DNA of 64,000 nt. It comes from Methanomassiliicoccaceae archaeon (GTDB lineage Archaea > Thermoplasmatota > Thermoplasmata > Methanomassiliicoccales > Methanomethylophilaceae). Position 1 is the stretch's first letter; each line of letters starts with the position of its first letter. The notes beneath the pieces were generated by a model. The model was not told where the DNA came from. It did not search any database and was given only the letters and a program-made list of their open reading frames with translations. Shown here in pieces: positions 7,113 through 60,366 of this stretch. The DNA lies in assembly GCA_016284295.1 (NCBI GenBank), contig JAEEOP010000031.1, positions 1-64,000 of the forward strand, read 5' to 3'. A program made the position numbers and the translations under genes.

Positions 7113-8690
7113 TCACTCGAGCCTGATGTACACGACCTCTTCGGTGCCGATCTTGGCCTCCAGGGCCTTGATGACATCCTCGGACACGTCGTTGTCGATG
7201 GTCAGGAACATCATGGCGTTGCCATTGCCCCTTCCCACCGCCATGTGGGCGATGTTGATGCCGGCCTCGCCGATGGCGCTGCCGACCGCTCCGATGACGC
7301 CGGGGGTGTCCTTGTACTTGAGGAGGATCATCCTCTCTGCGAGGGAGATCTCGGTGACGAATCCGTCCATGCTGATGATCCTGGGGCTGCCTCCGATGAC
7401 CGTACCCCTGATGGAGCGGGTCTTTCCCTCGGATGTGAACTTCATGTCCACATAGCTGGCGTAGTCCTTGGCCGCATCGTTGCTGGATTCGAAGATCTCG
7501 AGTCCCTTGGACTTGGCGACGGGCAGCGCGTTGATGATGTTGGCGGACCCGATGATGTTCTCAAGGTATCCGATGACGGTGGTTACCGTGAGGAGCTTGG
7601 TCTGCTTCTTGGCCAGGTTTCCGCAGTAGGAGATCTCGAGCTTGTTAAGGGGGTGGTTGCCGACGATCTGCTGTATCATGGAACCCATGCTCTTGACGAG
7701 GGGGACGTAGGGCTCGGTGTCCGCATCGAGGGCTCCGCGGGGAGCGTTGATGGCGTTGGAGACGATTCCGTCCCTGAGGTACATGACCGCGTGCTCGGCG
7801 ACCTCGATGGCGACCCTCTCCTGGGCCTCCACGGTGGATGCTCCGAGGTGGGGTGTGGTGACGAGGTTGTCCAGCTCGAGGAGCTTCTTCTCGTCGTCCG
7901 TGAGGGGCTCGTTGCACCATACGTCAAATGCAGCTCCGGCGATGATCTTCTCCTTCAGCGCAGTGTAGAGGTCGTCCTCGTTGACGATTCCTCCGCGGGC
8001 GACGTTGGCAATCCTCGCGTTGGGCTTCATCATCTTGAACTGGGGCATGGAAATCATGTTCCTGGTCTCAGGCAGGAGCGGTGTGTGGATTGTCATGAAG
8101 TCAGCAGTGGTGATGACCTCCTCGAGGGTGGTGAGCCTGACGCCGAGGGAGTCCGCTACCTCCTTGGGGAGGAAGGGATCGTATCCGATCATGGTCATGT
8201 TGAAGGCCTTCATGCGCTTAGCGACCTCTCCTCCGACACGTCCGACACCGATGATTCCCAGGACCTTGCCGTTGAGCTCGACCCCGGTGTACTTGGATCT
8301 CTTCCACTCGCCCTTGTGCATGGACTCGTGGGCGAAGGGGATGTTCCTTGCGACTGCGAGCAGCATGGCGCAGGAGTGCTCCGCCGCGGACAGGATGTTC
8401 GCGGAGGGGGTGTTCATGACCAGGATACCCTTGTCCGTGGCGTAGGGGACGTCGATGTTGTCCACTCCGACACCGGCACGGCCGATGACGCGGAGCTTCT
8501 TCGCGGCATCGATGACCTTCTTGGTGACCTTGGTACCCGACCTGATGATCAGGGCATCATAGTCGCCAATCTTCGCGCACAGTTCGTCCTCTGTGAGTCC
8601 GGACACCTCGTCCACGGGGAATCCGGAGCTCTTCAGTATCTCGAGTCCCTCTGCATCCAGGGGATCCGAAACCAGAATCTTCGTTGTCAT
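7113..8690 (-). CDS. serA: D-3-phosphoglycerate dehydrogenase
   Basis: First enzyme of serine synthesis, oxidising 3-phosphoglycerate to 3-phosphohydroxypyruvate with NAD. The 525 residues are the long form: catalytic and NAD domains (VLGIIGVGRVGGEVAKRM near 145; the arginine of NVARGGIVNEDDL near 235; E and H of the catalytic triad in TTPHLGAS near 285), the intervening ASB domain (320-450), and a C-terminal ACT domain (about 452-525, IILKYKDTPGVIGAVGSAIGEAGINIAHM) that usually binds serine for feedback control. It lies 3 bases downstream of a class V aminotransferase gene that can supply the next step. Confidence 0.95.
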   Translation of the reverse strand: MTTKILVSDPLDAEGLEILKSSGFPVDEVSGLTEDELCAKIGDYDALIIRSGTKVTKKVIDAAKKLRVIGRAGVGVDNIDVPYATDKGILVMNTPSANILSAAEHSCAMLLAVARNIPFAHESMHKGEWKRSKYTGVELNGKVLGIIGVGRVGGEVAKRMKAFNMTMIGYDPFLPKEVADSLGVRLTTLEEVITTADFMTIHTPLLPETRNMISMPQFKMMKPNARIANVARGGIVNEDDLYTALKEKIIAGAAFDVWCNEPLTDDEKKLLELDNLVTTPHLGASTVEAQERVAIEVAEHAVMYLRDGIVSNAINAPRGALDADTEPYVPLVKSMGSMIQQIVGNHPLNKLEISYCGNLAKKQTKLLTVTTVIGYLENIIGSANIINALPVAKSKGLEIFESSNDAAKDYASYVDMKFTSEGKTRSIRGTVIGGSPRIISMDGFVTEISLAERMILLKYKDTPGVIGAVGSAIGEAGINIAHMAVGRGNGNAMMFLTIDNDVSEDVIKALEAKIGTEEVVYIRLE

Positions 8691-8693
8691 GTC

Positions 8694-9758
8694 TCATTCC
8701 TCCAATACGTCGTCCATTGCGGACAGCAGTTCCTTTATCATTGCGGGAGTGGTGTCCCCCATGTGTCCGATCCTGAAGGTCTTCTCCTTGATATCCCCGT
8801 AACCGTTGGAGATCTCATATCCCTTGGCCTTGAGTTTCGAACTGAATGAATCGAAGTCCATCTCGCCCTTGTTGAGCACACCGATGGAGTTGGACTGGTA
8901 GCCTTCCTCGGGGAACACCCCGTAGAGGTTCTTCTTTGCCCAGTTCCTGACCATGTCGGCCATCTCCTGGTGTCTTCTGTACCTTGTCTGCATTCCCTCC
9001 GCCAGAGCCTTGTCCAGCTGGTAGTCCAATGCGTACATGAGGGATACCGGCGGTGTCGTGAGGGCGTAATCGACGTCCGCCTGCTTCTTGATCTTGAGCA
9101 GATCTCCGTAGAATCCGCGGTTGGGAACGGTCTTCGCCTTGTCCAGCAGCCTCTCGGAGCAGAGCATGATGGCGAGTCCGGGAGGGAGGGCGAGGGCCTT
9201 CTGCGTACCGAAGACAATCGAATCGGCATCCAGCTCCTTGACCTTGAGGTCCATCGCGAATGCGGATGTGACCGCGTCGATCATGGTGAGAGCGTCGGGG
9301 TTCTGGGCCCTGATCTCCTTCGACAGGGCGAGAGAGTCGCTGAACACTCCGGTGGAGGACTCGTTGCTAACCCAGTGGACGGCCTCGATGTCCTTTGTGA
9401 CCTTTCCGGCGATGTGCTCGGGCTTCATGGCCTCGCCCCAGGGCACCTGGACCTTGGTGACGTTCTTGCCATTGAGCTCACCGAGCTCGATCGACCTGTT
9501 TCCGAAGGAACCGTTCGTTATTCCGAGGGAATTGCTGTTCACACCGTTCCTGATGGCGGCCTCCAGCATCACGGTGGCCGATCCTCCGACGAGGAAAACG
9601 TCCATATCCGTGCCGAGAGCCTTCTGTATCTTCTCGACGATGCCAGCATGGAGCTCCTTGTACTCCTTGCAGCGGTGTGTGATCATAGGCTTGGTCATTG
9701 CTTGAAGCGTCGCGGCCTCCACGTGGACAGGCCCGACGGTGAATAATGTTCTGCTCAA
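8694..9758 (-). CDS. Class V aminotransferase, probable phosphoserine/serine-pyruvate type
   Basis: PLP enzyme of the alanine-glyoxylate/serine-pyruvate aminotransferase family, 354 residues. The PLP lysine is in FGTQKALALPPG (about residue 189); MIDAVTSAFAMDL supplies the cofactor aspartate. The start is TTG 9758, preceded at 5 bases by GAGGGAT. Because it is directly upstream of serA and I see no classical SerC in the window, the likely job is transamination of 3-phosphohydroxypyruvate, as shown for class V enzymes in some methanogens; this is inference. A TATA element (TTTTATAG, near 9810) points to a promoter for the operon aminotransferase-serA-6713 gene-helicase. Confidence 0.85.
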   Translation of the reverse strand: MSRTLFTVGPVHVEAATLQAMTKPMITHRCKEYKELHAGIVEKIQKALGTDMDVFLVGGSATVMLEAAIRNGVNSNSLGITNGSFGNRSIELGELNGKNVTKVQVPWGEAMKPEHIAGKVTKDIEAVHWVSNESSTGVFSDSLALSKEIRAQNPDALTMIDAVTSAFAMDLKVKELDADSIVFGTQKALALPPGLAIMLCSERLLDKAKTVPNRGFYGDLLKIKKQADVDYALTTPPVSLMYALDYQLDKALAEGMQTRYRRHQEMADMVRNWAKKNLYGVFPEEGYQSNSIGVLNKGEMDFDSFSSKLKAKGYEISNGYGDIKEKTFRIGHMGDTTPAMIKELLSAMDDVLEE

Positions 9759-55337: not shown

Positions 55338-56567
55338 ATGCCGAAATTACTGAACAAGACGATCATCAACATGCCTCAGATCGCACAGGAGCTCACACAG
55401 TGCGTCCAGTGCGGATACTGTATCGACGTGTGCGAGGCGCACAACCAGACACCTTGGGATTCCGTCACACCCAGGGGAAAGATCTACTACCTCAAGCAGC
55501 TCGACCTGAAGGCCCTCGGAGCCATGGACAAAGTCCTCGGAAGGCCCGTCGCCCTCAGCCCCGAGTTCGTCGACGCCATGTACAAATGCACAGGATGCGG
55601 AAACTGCGAGGTAGTCTGCCACGCAAAGATCCGCCTGGTCGACCTTTGGGAGACCATGAGGAAATGGATGGTCGAGATCGGCATCGGACCCATGCCCGCA
55701 GCCGTCGCCATGGGAAAGAGCATCCACAAGAACCACAACCCCTACAACGAGCCCGACTCGAAGAGGGATGCATGGTGGCCCGCGGACGTCGAGAGGCACA
55801 TCCCCGCCAACGTCATCTTCTTCGCAGGATGCACCGGTTCCTACAGGATGCAGCACATCGCTCAGGCCGGAGTCAGGGTCCTGGACCGTGCAGGCGTCAA
55901 GATGAACTGCCTCGGACCCGACGAGTGGTGCTGTTCCTCTCCCCTCATAAGGACAGGAAACGAGAAGGAATCCACCGCATGCGCACAGCACAACGTCGAG
56001 AAGGCGGACGGACTCGGGGGAAAGGACATGGTCATGACCTGCTCCGGTTGCTACAAGACCGTCTCCTGCGACTTCGGAAGGTTCTACGCAAAGGCCGGAC
56101 AGAACGTCTACCACTTCTCCCAGTACGTGGAGAACCTGATCAACGACAGGAAGCTCCCCCTCAACAACGAGTTCAACCACAAGGTCACCTATCACGACCC
56201 CTGCCACCTCGGAAGGCACTCCGGAGTCTACGACGCTCCCAGGAACGTCATCAAGAAGATCAAGGGTGTCGAGTTCGTCGAGATGGAGAGGTCCAGGGAG
56301 AACTCCAGGTGCTGCGGTGCAGGAGGAGGTTACAAGAGCACGTACCCCGACTTCGCACTCAACATCGGTATCGAGAGGATCCACGATGCAGAGGCCACCG
56401 GAGCTGAGGTCCTCATCAGCTGCTGTCCCTTCTGCGTCCTTAACCTGACGCAGGCGGCCAAGAAGATCGGCTCCAACATCAAGGTCATGGATCTGTCGCA
56501 GGTCCTCCTCGAGGTCACCGCGCCGAAGGCCCCCGCCGAGCCCGCAGCGGATGCTGCGAAGGCCTGA
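55338..56567 (+). CDS. hdrD: Heterodisulfide reductase subunit D
   Basis: Catalytic subunit that reduces CoM-S-S-CoB in the last step of methanogenesis, 409 residues. Two 4Fe-4S motifs lie at the N-terminus (CVQCGYCIDVC near 22, CTGCGNCEVVC near 87). Two cysteine-rich CCG domains follow (WCCSSPL, CSGCYKT, then DPCHLGRHSG, SRCCGAGGG, SCCPFC), binding the noncubane clusters at the active site. The C-terminus is Ala/Pro-rich. Methanomassiliicoccales use HdrD with an Fpo-like complex; no hdrE is adjacent. A strong terminator follows, so the gene is monocistronic. Confidence 0.93.
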   Translation: MPKLLNKTIINMPQIAQELTQCVQCGYCIDVCEAHNQTPWDSVTPRGKIYYLKQLDLKALGAMDKVLGRPVALSPEFVDAMYKCTGCGNCEVVCHAKIRLVDLWETMRKWMVEIGIGPMPAAVAMGKSIHKNHNPYNEPDSKRDAWWPADVERHIPANVIFFAGCTGSYRMQHIAQAGVRVLDRAGVKMNCLGPDEWCCSSPLIRTGNEKESTACAQHNVEKADGLGGKDMVMTCSGCYKTVSCDFGRFYAKAGQNVYHFSQYVENLINDRKLPLNNEFNHKVTYHDPCHLGRHSGVYDAPRNVIKKIKGVEFVEMERSRENSRCCGAGGGYKSTYPDFALNIGIERIHDAEATGAEVLISCCPFCVLNLTQAAKKIGSNIKVMDLSQVLLEVTAPKAPAEPAADAAKA

Positions 56568-56610: not shown

Positions 56611-59355
56611 ATGCCGTTCCCAGAACTCTGCCCGGACATCGTGCGCGTCCTGTCGTCCAAGGGCATAACCGAACCCACTCCCCCGCAGGCCGATTCCATC
56701 CCCCGCATCATCGGAGGTGAGAACCTCCTGCTCGTGGCGCCCACCGGCATAGGCAAAACGGAGGCCGCGATCCTTCCAGTTCTAGAGATGATAATGCGCA
56801 CCAAGGGCAGGCCGGGCATCAGATGCATCTACATCACCCCCCTCAGGGCCCTGAACAGGGACATGCTGAAGAGGATGCAGGAATACGGGAAGGAGCTCGG
56901 GATCACAGTCGGCGTGAGGCACGGCGACACCCCGCAGGGCGAGAGGAACAGGCAGTCCGAGCATCCCCCTGAAATACTGATCACCACACCCGAGACCCTT
57001 CAGGTCATGTTCACCGGCAAGAGGCTGGTGCAGCACATGAAGCATGTGGAGTGGGTCATCGTGGACGAGATCCACGAGCTCGCCAACACCGAGAGGGGCG
57101 CCCAGATGAGCGTCGCACTTGAGAGGCTGGTCCTTCTGGCGGGCAACTACCAGAGGATAGGACTGTCCGCGACCGTGGGCAACATCGAGAACGTCGCCAG
57201 GTTCCTGGCCGGGAACAACAGGCAGGTCGTCATCAGGAAGCACGACACGCACAGGGACTTCGACATCATGGTCGAGAGCCCCGCTCCGGACACGGAGGAT
57301 TCAAAACTATTGGACAAGCTGCAGAGCGACCCGGACATCCTCGCCGTCATGAAGAGGGCGAGGGAGATAGTCGAGAACGGGAACTCCACGCTCTTCTTCG
57401 TCAACACCAGGGAGACGGCCGAATGGCTGGCCGCCCGCTACCACATCTGGGACAATGACATCTCCATCGAGGTCCACCACGGATCGCTCTCCAAAGAGAA
57501 CAGGATGGAGATGGAGGACCGTTTCAAGAGGGGTGAGGTGAAGTGCCTGATATGCACATCGTCCCTGGAGCTGGGAATCGACGTCGGTACGACCGAGATG
57601 GTCATCCAGTACAACTCCCCAAGGCAGGTGTCCCGCATGATACAGCGCGCGGGCAGGGCTGGGCACAGGATAGGGGAGACCATAAGGGCCAAGATAATCG
57701 CCACCGCCCCGGACGAGGTGGCCGAGGCCATGGTCGTCGCCCGCAGGTCCGACTCCAAGGAGCTGGAGTACTTCGAGGGACGCGAATCCCCGCTCACGGT
57801 TGTCGCCAACCAGCTGATAGCCATGACCATGACCGGGGCCATGGACAAGGAGCTGGCGTTCAAGATGATACACAACGCCTATCCGTTCAGGAACCTGACG
57901 ATGGGCCAGATGCTGGATGTCCTGGAGCAGCTGAAGAGCATCAAGATGGTGTTCGACGACGGCGAGAAGTTCAAGCGCTCCAAGAAGGGTATGAACTACT
58001 TCTACGAGAACATCTCGATGATCCCGGACGAGCGCACGTACATGGTCCGCGACATAGGAACCAGGGCCATCATAGGCACGCTGGACGAGAGCTTCGTGGC
58101 ATCCTTCGCAGAGGAATATGCGATGTTCATCGCCAAGGGCAGGACGTGGCGCATAGTGGAGATGAGGGAGGACGAGATCCTGGTCGAGGAGGCCAAGGAG
58201 GTCGGCTCCGTCCCCAATTGGGTAGGATCGGACATACCCGTACCATTCTAGATCGCGATGGAGGTCGGCCGTATGAGGAGGCTCAGGAACTTCCCGGATT
58301 ATCCCGGCGACGAGGGGTGCGTCAGGGTGCTGAAGGAGTACTTCGCATCCCAGGACGAGAAGTCGGTCATGCCCACCGACAAGGTCGTGACCGTTGAGGT
58401 CGCCGACCGCATGGCCATAGTCAACTGCTGCTTCGGGACCAAGGTCAACGAGACCCTCGGCAAGATCTACTCCGCACTCCTCACTGCGCGCCTGGGCGAA
58501 TCCATCGGCGTCACCGTGGACCCATACCGCATCATAATGGAGCTCCCGCGCGACGTGGAGAAGGATGTGATAGTCGGCACCATGAGATCGGTGAAACCGG
58601 GCAGCGTGGAGGCGCTGTGCAGGATGACGATCCTGAACTCCTCCTTCCTCAGATGGAGGTTCGTCTACGTGGCGAAGAAGTTCGGCATAGTTGAGAAGGA
58701 GGCGGACCATCGCTTCATGAACTTCGGGAGGCTGTTCGAGCTCCACAAGGACACCCCTGCATATGCAGAGGCGATAAACAAGGTCCTCTGGGAGGACCTG
58801 GACATACCGAACACCGAAAAGGTAGTCTCGATGATCTCCAACGGGGAGATCGAGCTGGTGACGGGGAGGCTCTCGGCCATCGGGCTGGAAGGGATCACCA
58901 GGTCCAAGGAGCTCATGCAGCCGGTCCGTGCGGACCACTCCATCCTCATGGCCCTGAAGAAGAGGCTGGAGGACGAGATTCTCTTCGCATCATGCATGCA
59001 TTGCGGATCCCAATCCAGATTCAGAGTGGGGGATGCCCCCAAGAAATTCATATGCCCCCAGTGCGGAGGCGTGATGATAGCGGTCCTGAAGAACTACGAG
59101 AGGGATACGGTCAAGCTGATCAAGGAGCCTGCCCTCTCCAAGCAGGAAAGGATGGATCTTCAGAAGATGAGCAAGAATGCCAACCTGGTCTACGAGCAGG
59201 GTCGGCGTGCGGTGCTGGTCCTTGCCGGAAGGGGTATCGGACCGGACACTGCAGCAAGGATACTCCGCACGCTCCACTCCGAAGAGGACGAGTTCCTCAG
59301 GGACATCATGAACGCAGAGATACTCTTCGCGAAGAACAAGAGGTTCTGGGACTGA
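56611..59355 (+). CDS. lhr: Lhr-type superfamily 2 helicase with an in-frame TAG codon
   Basis: A 914-residue helicase when TAG codon 547 (58249-58251) is read as an amino acid. Motifs before it: APTGIGKTEA (Walker A near 50), IVDEIHEL (DEIH near 150), LSATVGNIEN, and MIQRAGRAGH near 350, then the winged-helix part. The frame reads SDIPVPF-TAG-IAMEVGRMRR, where relatives have an unbroken chain, and continues for 367 residues through the Lhr core's tail domain, including zinc-finger-like CMHC...CPQC (near 792-813). The total equals a normal Lhr. If TAG stopped translation, a 546-residue product and a second ORF starting at ATG 58258 would result. Archaeal Lhr works in repair. Confidence 0.8.
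58249..58251 (+). other. In-frame TAG (probable pyrrolysine or read-through codon) in the helicase
   Basis: Codon 547 of the helicase frame, with TTC before and ATC after. No hairpin is obvious right after it. Confidence 0.6.
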
Positions 59356-59403: not shown

Positions 59404-60366
59404 TTAGGTTGCGGATCGGACCGTATGGCCATCCGCTTCTGAATCGGATTCCATTTCCTTTTTGACAGCCTCGAACGCCTCCAGGAAGTCCGGCATGGAC
59501 CTTTCATCGACCTTGATAATGGATAATGCTTTTTCCATTGTCCACCCTTCCTCAGTTATTAGGGCGTAAGCATACTATGCCATACCCTTCATTTTGCCCA
59601 TGTATTCAAGATATTCGAAATACTGTTCATCCAGGTCAGACATTCTATCCGACAATGGTTTGTCGATATGGATATTATACACTTTCGTCAGCCTGTCGCT
59701 GATGGCCTCTGATTCCTTCAGCCTACTGAACAGCAGTTTGAGTATCTCCATGGCGCCCTCCTGCACAACATCCCCGTATCCGGGGACCGTGACCTCCAGG
59801 ATCTCCACCTTATCGAACGCCCCGTCGTCGGAACCGATCTTCGGATCATCGGGTGACCTCCTCATGATGGCATATCTCTTGATGCGGTTCGTATCATTGG
59901 TACGGGGCCTCAGCATGATGAAGATGACATAGCATTTCCTGAGACGGCTGTATTCTAGACGTTCGTAACCTGACATCTGCTCATCTATCATGCGGGCCAT
60001 GTAGCAGGTCATGCGATCATGGATGTCGTATCCGGGGCTGTTGGAGATCTGACCTTCCATGTCTATGAAGCATGAGATCTCCTCCTGACCGGGTGCCCTG
60101 ATACGGAAATAGTTGTCGAGCACGAAGGAGGTCTTCCCGACGAAGAGATGCGTGTCCAATGACTGCACACGGCCGTTGTCCCCTATGTCCAGGCACTGCC
60201 AGATCTGCTCCGGTTCCATGTCCTTGAGTTCCTCTATCCAATCCTTGAGGAGATTGGAAAGGACATCTGGATTCCTCACAACCTCTTTGAAAATCGGATC
60301 CAGTATCCTGCTGTTGTTCCTACCGGTTCCGATGCCGTCCGCATGCATGTTTGACATGGGACGCAT
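59404..60366 (-). CDS. Rpn/PD-(D/E)XK transposase-like protein with an in-frame TAG codon
   Basis: Protein of the PD-(D/E)XK nuclease-family transposase (Rpn-like) group. Conserved acidic positions are in RILDPIFKEVV (near 20), CFIDMEGQI (E-x-Q, near 100) and the helix YDIHDRMTCYMARM. The frame runs 263 codons to TAG at 59575, then continues without another stop for 56 codons (YAYALITEEGWTMEKALSII, KVDERSMPDFLEAFEAVKKE...) to TAA 59404. The tail matches the usual C-terminal helix of such proteins (EEGWTMEKAL). Read through, it has 320 residues; stopped at TAG, 263. These proteins are mobile or recombination-linked and common in gut archaea. Confidence 0.7.
59575..59577 (-). other. In-frame TAG in the Rpn-like gene
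   Basis: Codon 264 of the frame, between GMA and YAYALI. The coding look of the sequence beyond it is the main reason to treat it as sense. Confidence 0.55.

Follow-up and report, generated by a model that had tools for sequence, protein, structure and literature searches.

The window analysed here, a 64,000-nucleotide stretch of a Methanomassiliicoccales genome, carries a gene for an Lhr-type superfamily 2 (SF2) helicase whose reading frame is interrupted once, by a TAG at codon 547 (Table 1). The initial annotation had described two open stretches split solely by this triplet, and the sequence bears this out: the TAG is followed by ATC GCG ATG, and a single frame runs on both sides of it. 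Read as sense, the TAG gives a protein of 914 residues; read as stop, it leaves one of 546. An alternative ATG lies upstream at 56551, and the alignment of relatives begins at the ATG at 56611.

Table 1 Features of the helicase gene and of other TAG-bearing genes in the same genome (G000). Positions are those of the window unless a locus (L) or contig (C) is named.
Feature	Position	Strand	Evidence
aLhr1-type SF2 helicase gene, 914 codons + TGA, one in-frame TAG	56611..59355	+	ORFs, Pfam, homologues
RecA1 (DEAD), residues 23-194	56677..57192	+	Pfam PF00270
RecA2 (Helicase_C), residues 251-351	57361..57663	+	Pfam PF00271
Lhr winged-helix (WH_Lhr), residues 382-530	57754..58200	+	Pfam PF19306
Trp537 codon, invariant; aligns with Trp of mycobacterial Lhr motif FWRG	58219..58221	+	alignments
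TAG in frame at codon 547, most likely decoded as pyrrolysine; nearly every relative has Glu	58249..58251	+	alignments
ATG (in-frame Met550), usable by a reinitiating ribosome; part of a conserved motif in relatives	58258..58260	+	alignment
DEAD_assoc (part of Lhr Domain 4), residues 587-752	58369..58866	+	Pfam PF08494
CxxC...CxxC pair (Cys795, 798, 815, 818), aLhr1 cysteine-rich motif	58993..59064	+	sequence, alignment
Citrate synthase paralogue with TAG	L056:3360-4709 = G000:C36:23360-24709	minus	
Second citrate synthase paralogue with TAG, at yet another site	L259:1644-3020, G000:C21	minus	
Adenylate kinase-like gene (putative name)	G000:C33:112924-113457, L041	minus	

The domain content matches the annotated division into an SF2 part (DEAD, Helicase_C and WH_Lhr) before the TAG and tail domains after it. 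DEAD_assoc lies entirely downstream, and the TAG itself falls between WH_Lhr and DEAD_assoc, near the domain border and outside the RecA domains. The four cysteines of the CxxC...CxxC pair are invariant across 26 aligned rows; a C-terminal cysteine-rich motif is what separates aLhr1 from aLhr2 according to PMC8301817. With its SF2 core, Lhr winged helix, DEAD_assoc/Domain 4 region and cysteine motif, the predicted protein is of the aLhr1 type, having RecA1, RecA2, winged helix, Domain 4 region and C-terminal cysteine motif in common with the archaeal aLhr1 group as set out there; unlike the other aLhr1 genes examined, it has a TAG where they have a sense codon. The helicase is related to, although not named by, the NCBIfam equivalog PRK13767, whose cut-off it misses (455 bits versus 849). 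Its predicted structure (mean pLDDT 76) has its best PDB match in mycobacterial Lhr (5v9x, TM 0.65/0.75); pLDDT is below 50 over most of residues 469-541, directly preceding codon 547, and residue 547 is placed in the first turn of a helix spanning 546-558.

An open frame after the TAG is weak evidence alone, because at least 367 codons free of TAA and TGA follow 52 of the 1229 TAG triplets of this contig, in any frame or strand. Homology across the TAG indicates that the continuation of the reading frame is more than chance, and Pfam and homologues support a predicted 914-residue Lhr-type protein whose frame runs to the usual end of the family. The second part might instead be a 365-residue protein of its own that starts at the ATG at 58258 and reassembles with the first. 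That ATG lies 6 bases past the TAG and its open reading frame is listed, but Met550 sits within a motif conserved in relatives that have the whole gene, and no purine-rich ribosome-binding site was seen by eye in bases 58238-58257. We regard such a gene pair as extremely improbable.

Alignment of the orthologous column, a check proposed with the initial annotation, places Glu at codon 547 in nearly all relatives examined. Across 51 loci (30 whole-genome loci including the present one and 21 contig-database loci, with organisms partly shared), the column holds Glu in 48, Asp in one and TAG in one, the present gene, and is not covered in one; all 29 other whole-genome loci and 20 of the 21 contig-database loci align across the site, the last ending before it. 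Over 26 rows from across the phylum, the counts are Glu 21, Ser 2, Asp 1, Gly 1 and the single TAG, and approximately 35% of alignment columns are as conserved as codon 547 or more so. Trp537, Gly539, Pro543, Pro545, Glu551, Val552, Gly553 and Arg556 nearby are invariant in the same rows, and mycobacterial Lhr has Glu at the equivalent position, ten residues past the motif Trp. Among the rows listed, aLhr1 has a match in 97 of 102 family genomes, some as pieces without codon 547, and the present copy alone has an internal stop; a search of 145 genomes of the phylum likewise gave no internal stop in any other aLhr1 among the matches listed. The TAG is thus not conserved in orthologues, a conservation that holds for the methyltransferases and is not required of neutral cases. 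Codon 547 is a conserved but replaceable slot that follows the W...G...P.P motif of Lhr Domain 4. Because Glu547 hardly varies within the family, its replacement may cost activity.

The coding sequence is constrained on both sides of the TAG. Ka/Ks between this aLhr1 and eight relatives is 0.05-0.08 before the TAG and 0.06-0.09 after it, compared with approximately 0.04-0.10 and 0.03-0.09, respectively, among the relatives themselves (one near-identical pair excluded). The value for the present gene is higher after the TAG than before it in seven of the eight pairs and equal in one, and lineage-specific changes amount to 9 of 445 upstream of it and 12 of 295 downstream (p = 0.12; seven close sequences). 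No otherwise invariant column has changed on either side (0 of 196 before, 0 of 100 after, 0 of 296 in total, counted without three fragment rows). By these comparisons, purifying selection on the region downstream of the TAG is strong and similar to that upstream, with a slight relaxation possible. The constraint data exclude an old loss of the second part and are compatible with a recent one.

A recent loss of function would be one form of an explanation in which the TAG terminates translation; another would be a 546-residue core helicase, with an intact aLhr2 covering the function in either case. The genome does encode an aLhr2 of 1786 residues with no stop, the truncation point is near a domain border and changes are slightly more frequent after the TAG. 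The 546-residue product would be without nearly all of Domain 4, and by analogy with a paralogue, the aLhr2 of T. barophilus, it might keep part of its activity: without Domain 4 that enzyme shows reduced ATPase and nucleic-acid binding while its unwinding and annealing are no more than residual, and the enzyme requires its conserved Trp577 (PMC8301817). The unchanged invariant columns after the TAG, the frame open to the usual end of the family, the full pyl set and the small number of TAG stops argue against termination, which we consider very unlikely.

The genome has a complete set of pyrrolysine genes, as the initial annotation had suggested looking for: a tRNA-Pyl (pylT) with anticodon CTA (CUA in RNA), together with pylS, pylB, pylC and pylD. 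PylS scores 261 bits against an NCBIfam curated cut-off of 178, and PylB, PylC and PylD are likewise above their curated cut-offs. The pyl genes directly follow mtmB, a TAG-bearing gene matched by Pfam PF05369 (692 bits) as a single stretch, 7-458, across the TAG at its codon 202; NCBIfam profiles gave no match for this mtmB. PylS was detected in 75 of the 102 family genomes. In MtmB, MtbB and MttB the TAG is read as pyrrolysine, always in the active site according to PMC8211752, whereas the aLhr1 TAG occurs in this genome alone among those searched and lies outside the RecA domains. No unusually stable PYLIS-type RNA structure was found within 100 bases downstream of the helicase TAG (z -0.56, compared with -0.81 for mtmB of the same genome); pyrrolysine decoding needs no such cis element in the same source.

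That source also proposes that UAG decoding competes with release factors, a mechanism by which termination and tRNA-Pyl would share the codon and yield both core and full-length helicase, in a ratio that follows the supply of pyrrolysine (methylamine). The position of the TAG between Pfam domains would suit such an arrangement. However, the TAG is absent from every relative examined, leaving no selected switch visible, and the rarity of TAG stops here agrees with efficient decoding. We consider a regulated mixture rather unlikely; it overlaps the reading of the codon as pyrrolysine because part of the protein would still carry the residue.

Stop-codon usage in the same genome was surveyed over approximately 455 kb, about a quarter of the genome, with a simple purpose-made gene caller. 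Among 393 genes, TGA was called as the stop in 344, TAA in 39 and TAG in 10. Five of the ten TAG ends continue in frame as strong coding sequence; the other five continuations are short or weakly coding, given which some TAGs may still terminate. Coding continuation was dropped as stand-alone evidence, because tandem genes that share a frame produce it after 28 of 344 TGA and 6 of 39 TAA stops as well. The TAG share of stops was also rejected as a separator of genomes with and without pyl genes, since this genome (10 of 393), the pyl-bearing relative G055 (3 of 192) and G060, in which no pylS was found (2 of 182), are not set apart by it; G060 may nevertheless have a pylS that its assembly lacks. 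As a separate observation, G060 has a transposon protein with a TAG inside its DRDxNAA motif (L115, G060:C1:140001-160000, approximately 7805-8905, minus strand), which we call TnpB-like from our reading of that motif.

Homology spanning the stop was then compared with G055 (1.4 of its 1.66 Mb covered) for the 211 genes that stay open for 20 codons or more past their stop, spanning being defined as one alignment with 20 or more residues and no less than 35% identity on both sides. The alignment spans the stop in 38 of the 211 genes, and a single uninterrupted G055 reading frame corresponds to three of four TAG genes, one of four TAA genes and none of 30 TGA genes. The three TAG genes that are whole in G055 encode aLhr1, a citrate synthase and a TPR protein, and the fourth is mtmB, which has its TAG in G055 as well. 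The difference between 3 of 4 for TAG and 1 of 34 for other stops has a hypergeometric chance of approximately 0.002 (computed by hand). The TAA case is a conserved 231-residue protein of unknown function (G000:C36:74398-75096, minus), broken 581 bases from the contig end; the G055 gene is whole, with GAG in place of the TAA, a difference of two bases. Premature stops other than TAG therefore occur in the sampled quarter of the assembly.

These counts bear on an assembly or sequencing error, in which the true codon would be GAG or another sense codon and the gene an ordinary aLhr1. The TAG is private to one 45-contig assembly among the genomes searched, GAG and TAG differ by one base, and the TAA-broken gene is another conserved gene interrupted in the sample. 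Errors would be expected to produce TAA and TGA breaks too, against the proportions seen relative to G055; moreover, conserved genes of other species have in-frame TAG, with no internal TAA or TGA in four genus searches, and the site is not close to either end of its 120,147-base contig (C33). We consider an assembly error quite unlikely; the TAG could also be of very recent origin.

In the genus searches, rows with an internal stop numbered 9 of 38 for citrate synthase, 1 of 40 for aLhr2 (35 of the 40 rows being aLhr2 itself), 2 of 24 for the TPR protein and 3 of 21 for a PDDEXK gene, the present genome's copies included, and every internal stop was TAG. Each of the two citrate synthases found in the genome has an in-frame TAG at a site of its own, and neither would remain whole if TAG were strictly a stop. 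The citrate synthase TAGs occupy three columns of 20 aligned rows: one in two genomes (otherwise Cys, Arg, His, Ala, Ser or Lys), one in three genomes (otherwise Val, Ile, Thr, Glu, Lys or Arg) and one in the present genome (otherwise Lys or Arg). The aLhr2 of the sister species G058 (L080, G058:C35:22500-30500) is alignable across its in-frame TAG over 1786 residues; the three genomes set beside it have Ser or Gln in that column. Separate gains of TAG at replaceable sites, with no TAA or TGA among the rows of these searches, are expected from drift where TAG is sense.

The gene next to the helicase (59404-60366, minus) also has an in-frame TAG, at 59575-59577, followed by 56 open codons; it has a weak PD-(D/E)XK nuclease/transposase match, below cut-off, and its relatives have internal TAGs in two other genomes. 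An adenylate kinase-like gene, the terminal TAG of which is kept in 27 of 31 genus rows and replaced by a Leu or Ser codon in four genomes, was rejected as a case of conserved pyrrolysine: the TAG overlaps the start of the next gene ATGGTTCTAGAC, which can explain the conservation of the TAG and of the bases after it.

Taken together, we consider it very probable that the gene encodes a 914-residue aLhr1 in which the PylS and tRNA-Pyl of the cell itself read UAG 547 as pyrrolysine. We infer the translation of the TAG, the residue inserted and its near-neutrality from comparative data; translation, already proposed in the initial annotation, finds support in the pyl set, the spanning homology and the constraint after the TAG. 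Most likely, a single G-to-T change turned a GAG (Glu) codon into TAG on this lineage, after which PylS and tRNA-Pyl would read UAG 547 and insert pyrrolysine, giving full-length helicase. The residue at slot 547 is probably tolerated by near-neutral drift and not selected, and the supply of full-length helicase would then depend on pyrrolysine. A near-neutral change from Glu to pyrrolysine is thus the most likely history, with an assembly error and a recent loss as possible alternatives. Whether the residue is neutral or tunes the enzyme had been left open; the occurrence of Asp, Ser and Gly in nature, the private TAG and the scattered TAG sites of the genus favour near-neutrality and lend tuning no support.

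There is precedent for pyrrolysine in a non-methyltransferase enzyme in the Thg1 (tRNA-His guanylyltransferase) of Methanosarcinales, which is a different enzyme in a different order. A 2009 paper by Heinemann reportedly describes this case, and its title calls it neutral evolution. Closer in lineage is Ca. Methanomethylophilus alvus, which belongs to the same order and likewise combines a full pyl set with few TAG stops and with in-frame TAG in conserved genes that have none in relatives (PMC4153887). There, TAG ends 1.6% of genes, an in-frame TAG was argued to be a stable mutation, and 16 non-methyltransferase pyrrolysine candidates, one a phage-like helicase, were predicted in 2014 (PMC4153887). 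Unlike in the present genome, none of the 20 proteins of Table 7 in that paper is named as Lhr or citrate synthase, several being hypothetical. The candidates of Ca. M. alvus, one of them helicase-like, lessen the surprise that the initial annotation saw in a pyrrolysine-containing helicase.

A literature search found no paper joining pyrrolysine, Lhr and helicase, and one covering 2024 onwards found nothing for pyrrolysine with 'Pyl code'. A 2025 report is said to describe archaea in which every TAG codon is decoded as pyrrolysine; if it holds, the general phenomenon is already known. We take the phenomenon as known and the aLhr1 as a new example of it.

The wider question is whether TAG in this genus has effectively become a sense codon for pyrrolysine, with genes of central metabolism and DNA repair having drifted into needing it; both citrate synthases and the aLhr1 of this genome and the aLhr2 of a sister species are the examples behind this reading, to which we give about an even chance. 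Gene callers split such genes when they take TAG for a stop, and the annotation of this group of archaea can consequently be wrong there. The likely pyrrolysine proteins gain a DNA-repair-type helicase and two citrate synthases of one organism. Setting TAG against TAA and TGA within the conserved genes of 31 genomes from a single genus offers a natural test series, which would show how far a stop codon has become a sense codon. If the reading is true, an amino acid originally retained for the use of methylamines would now be necessary for general functions of the cell.
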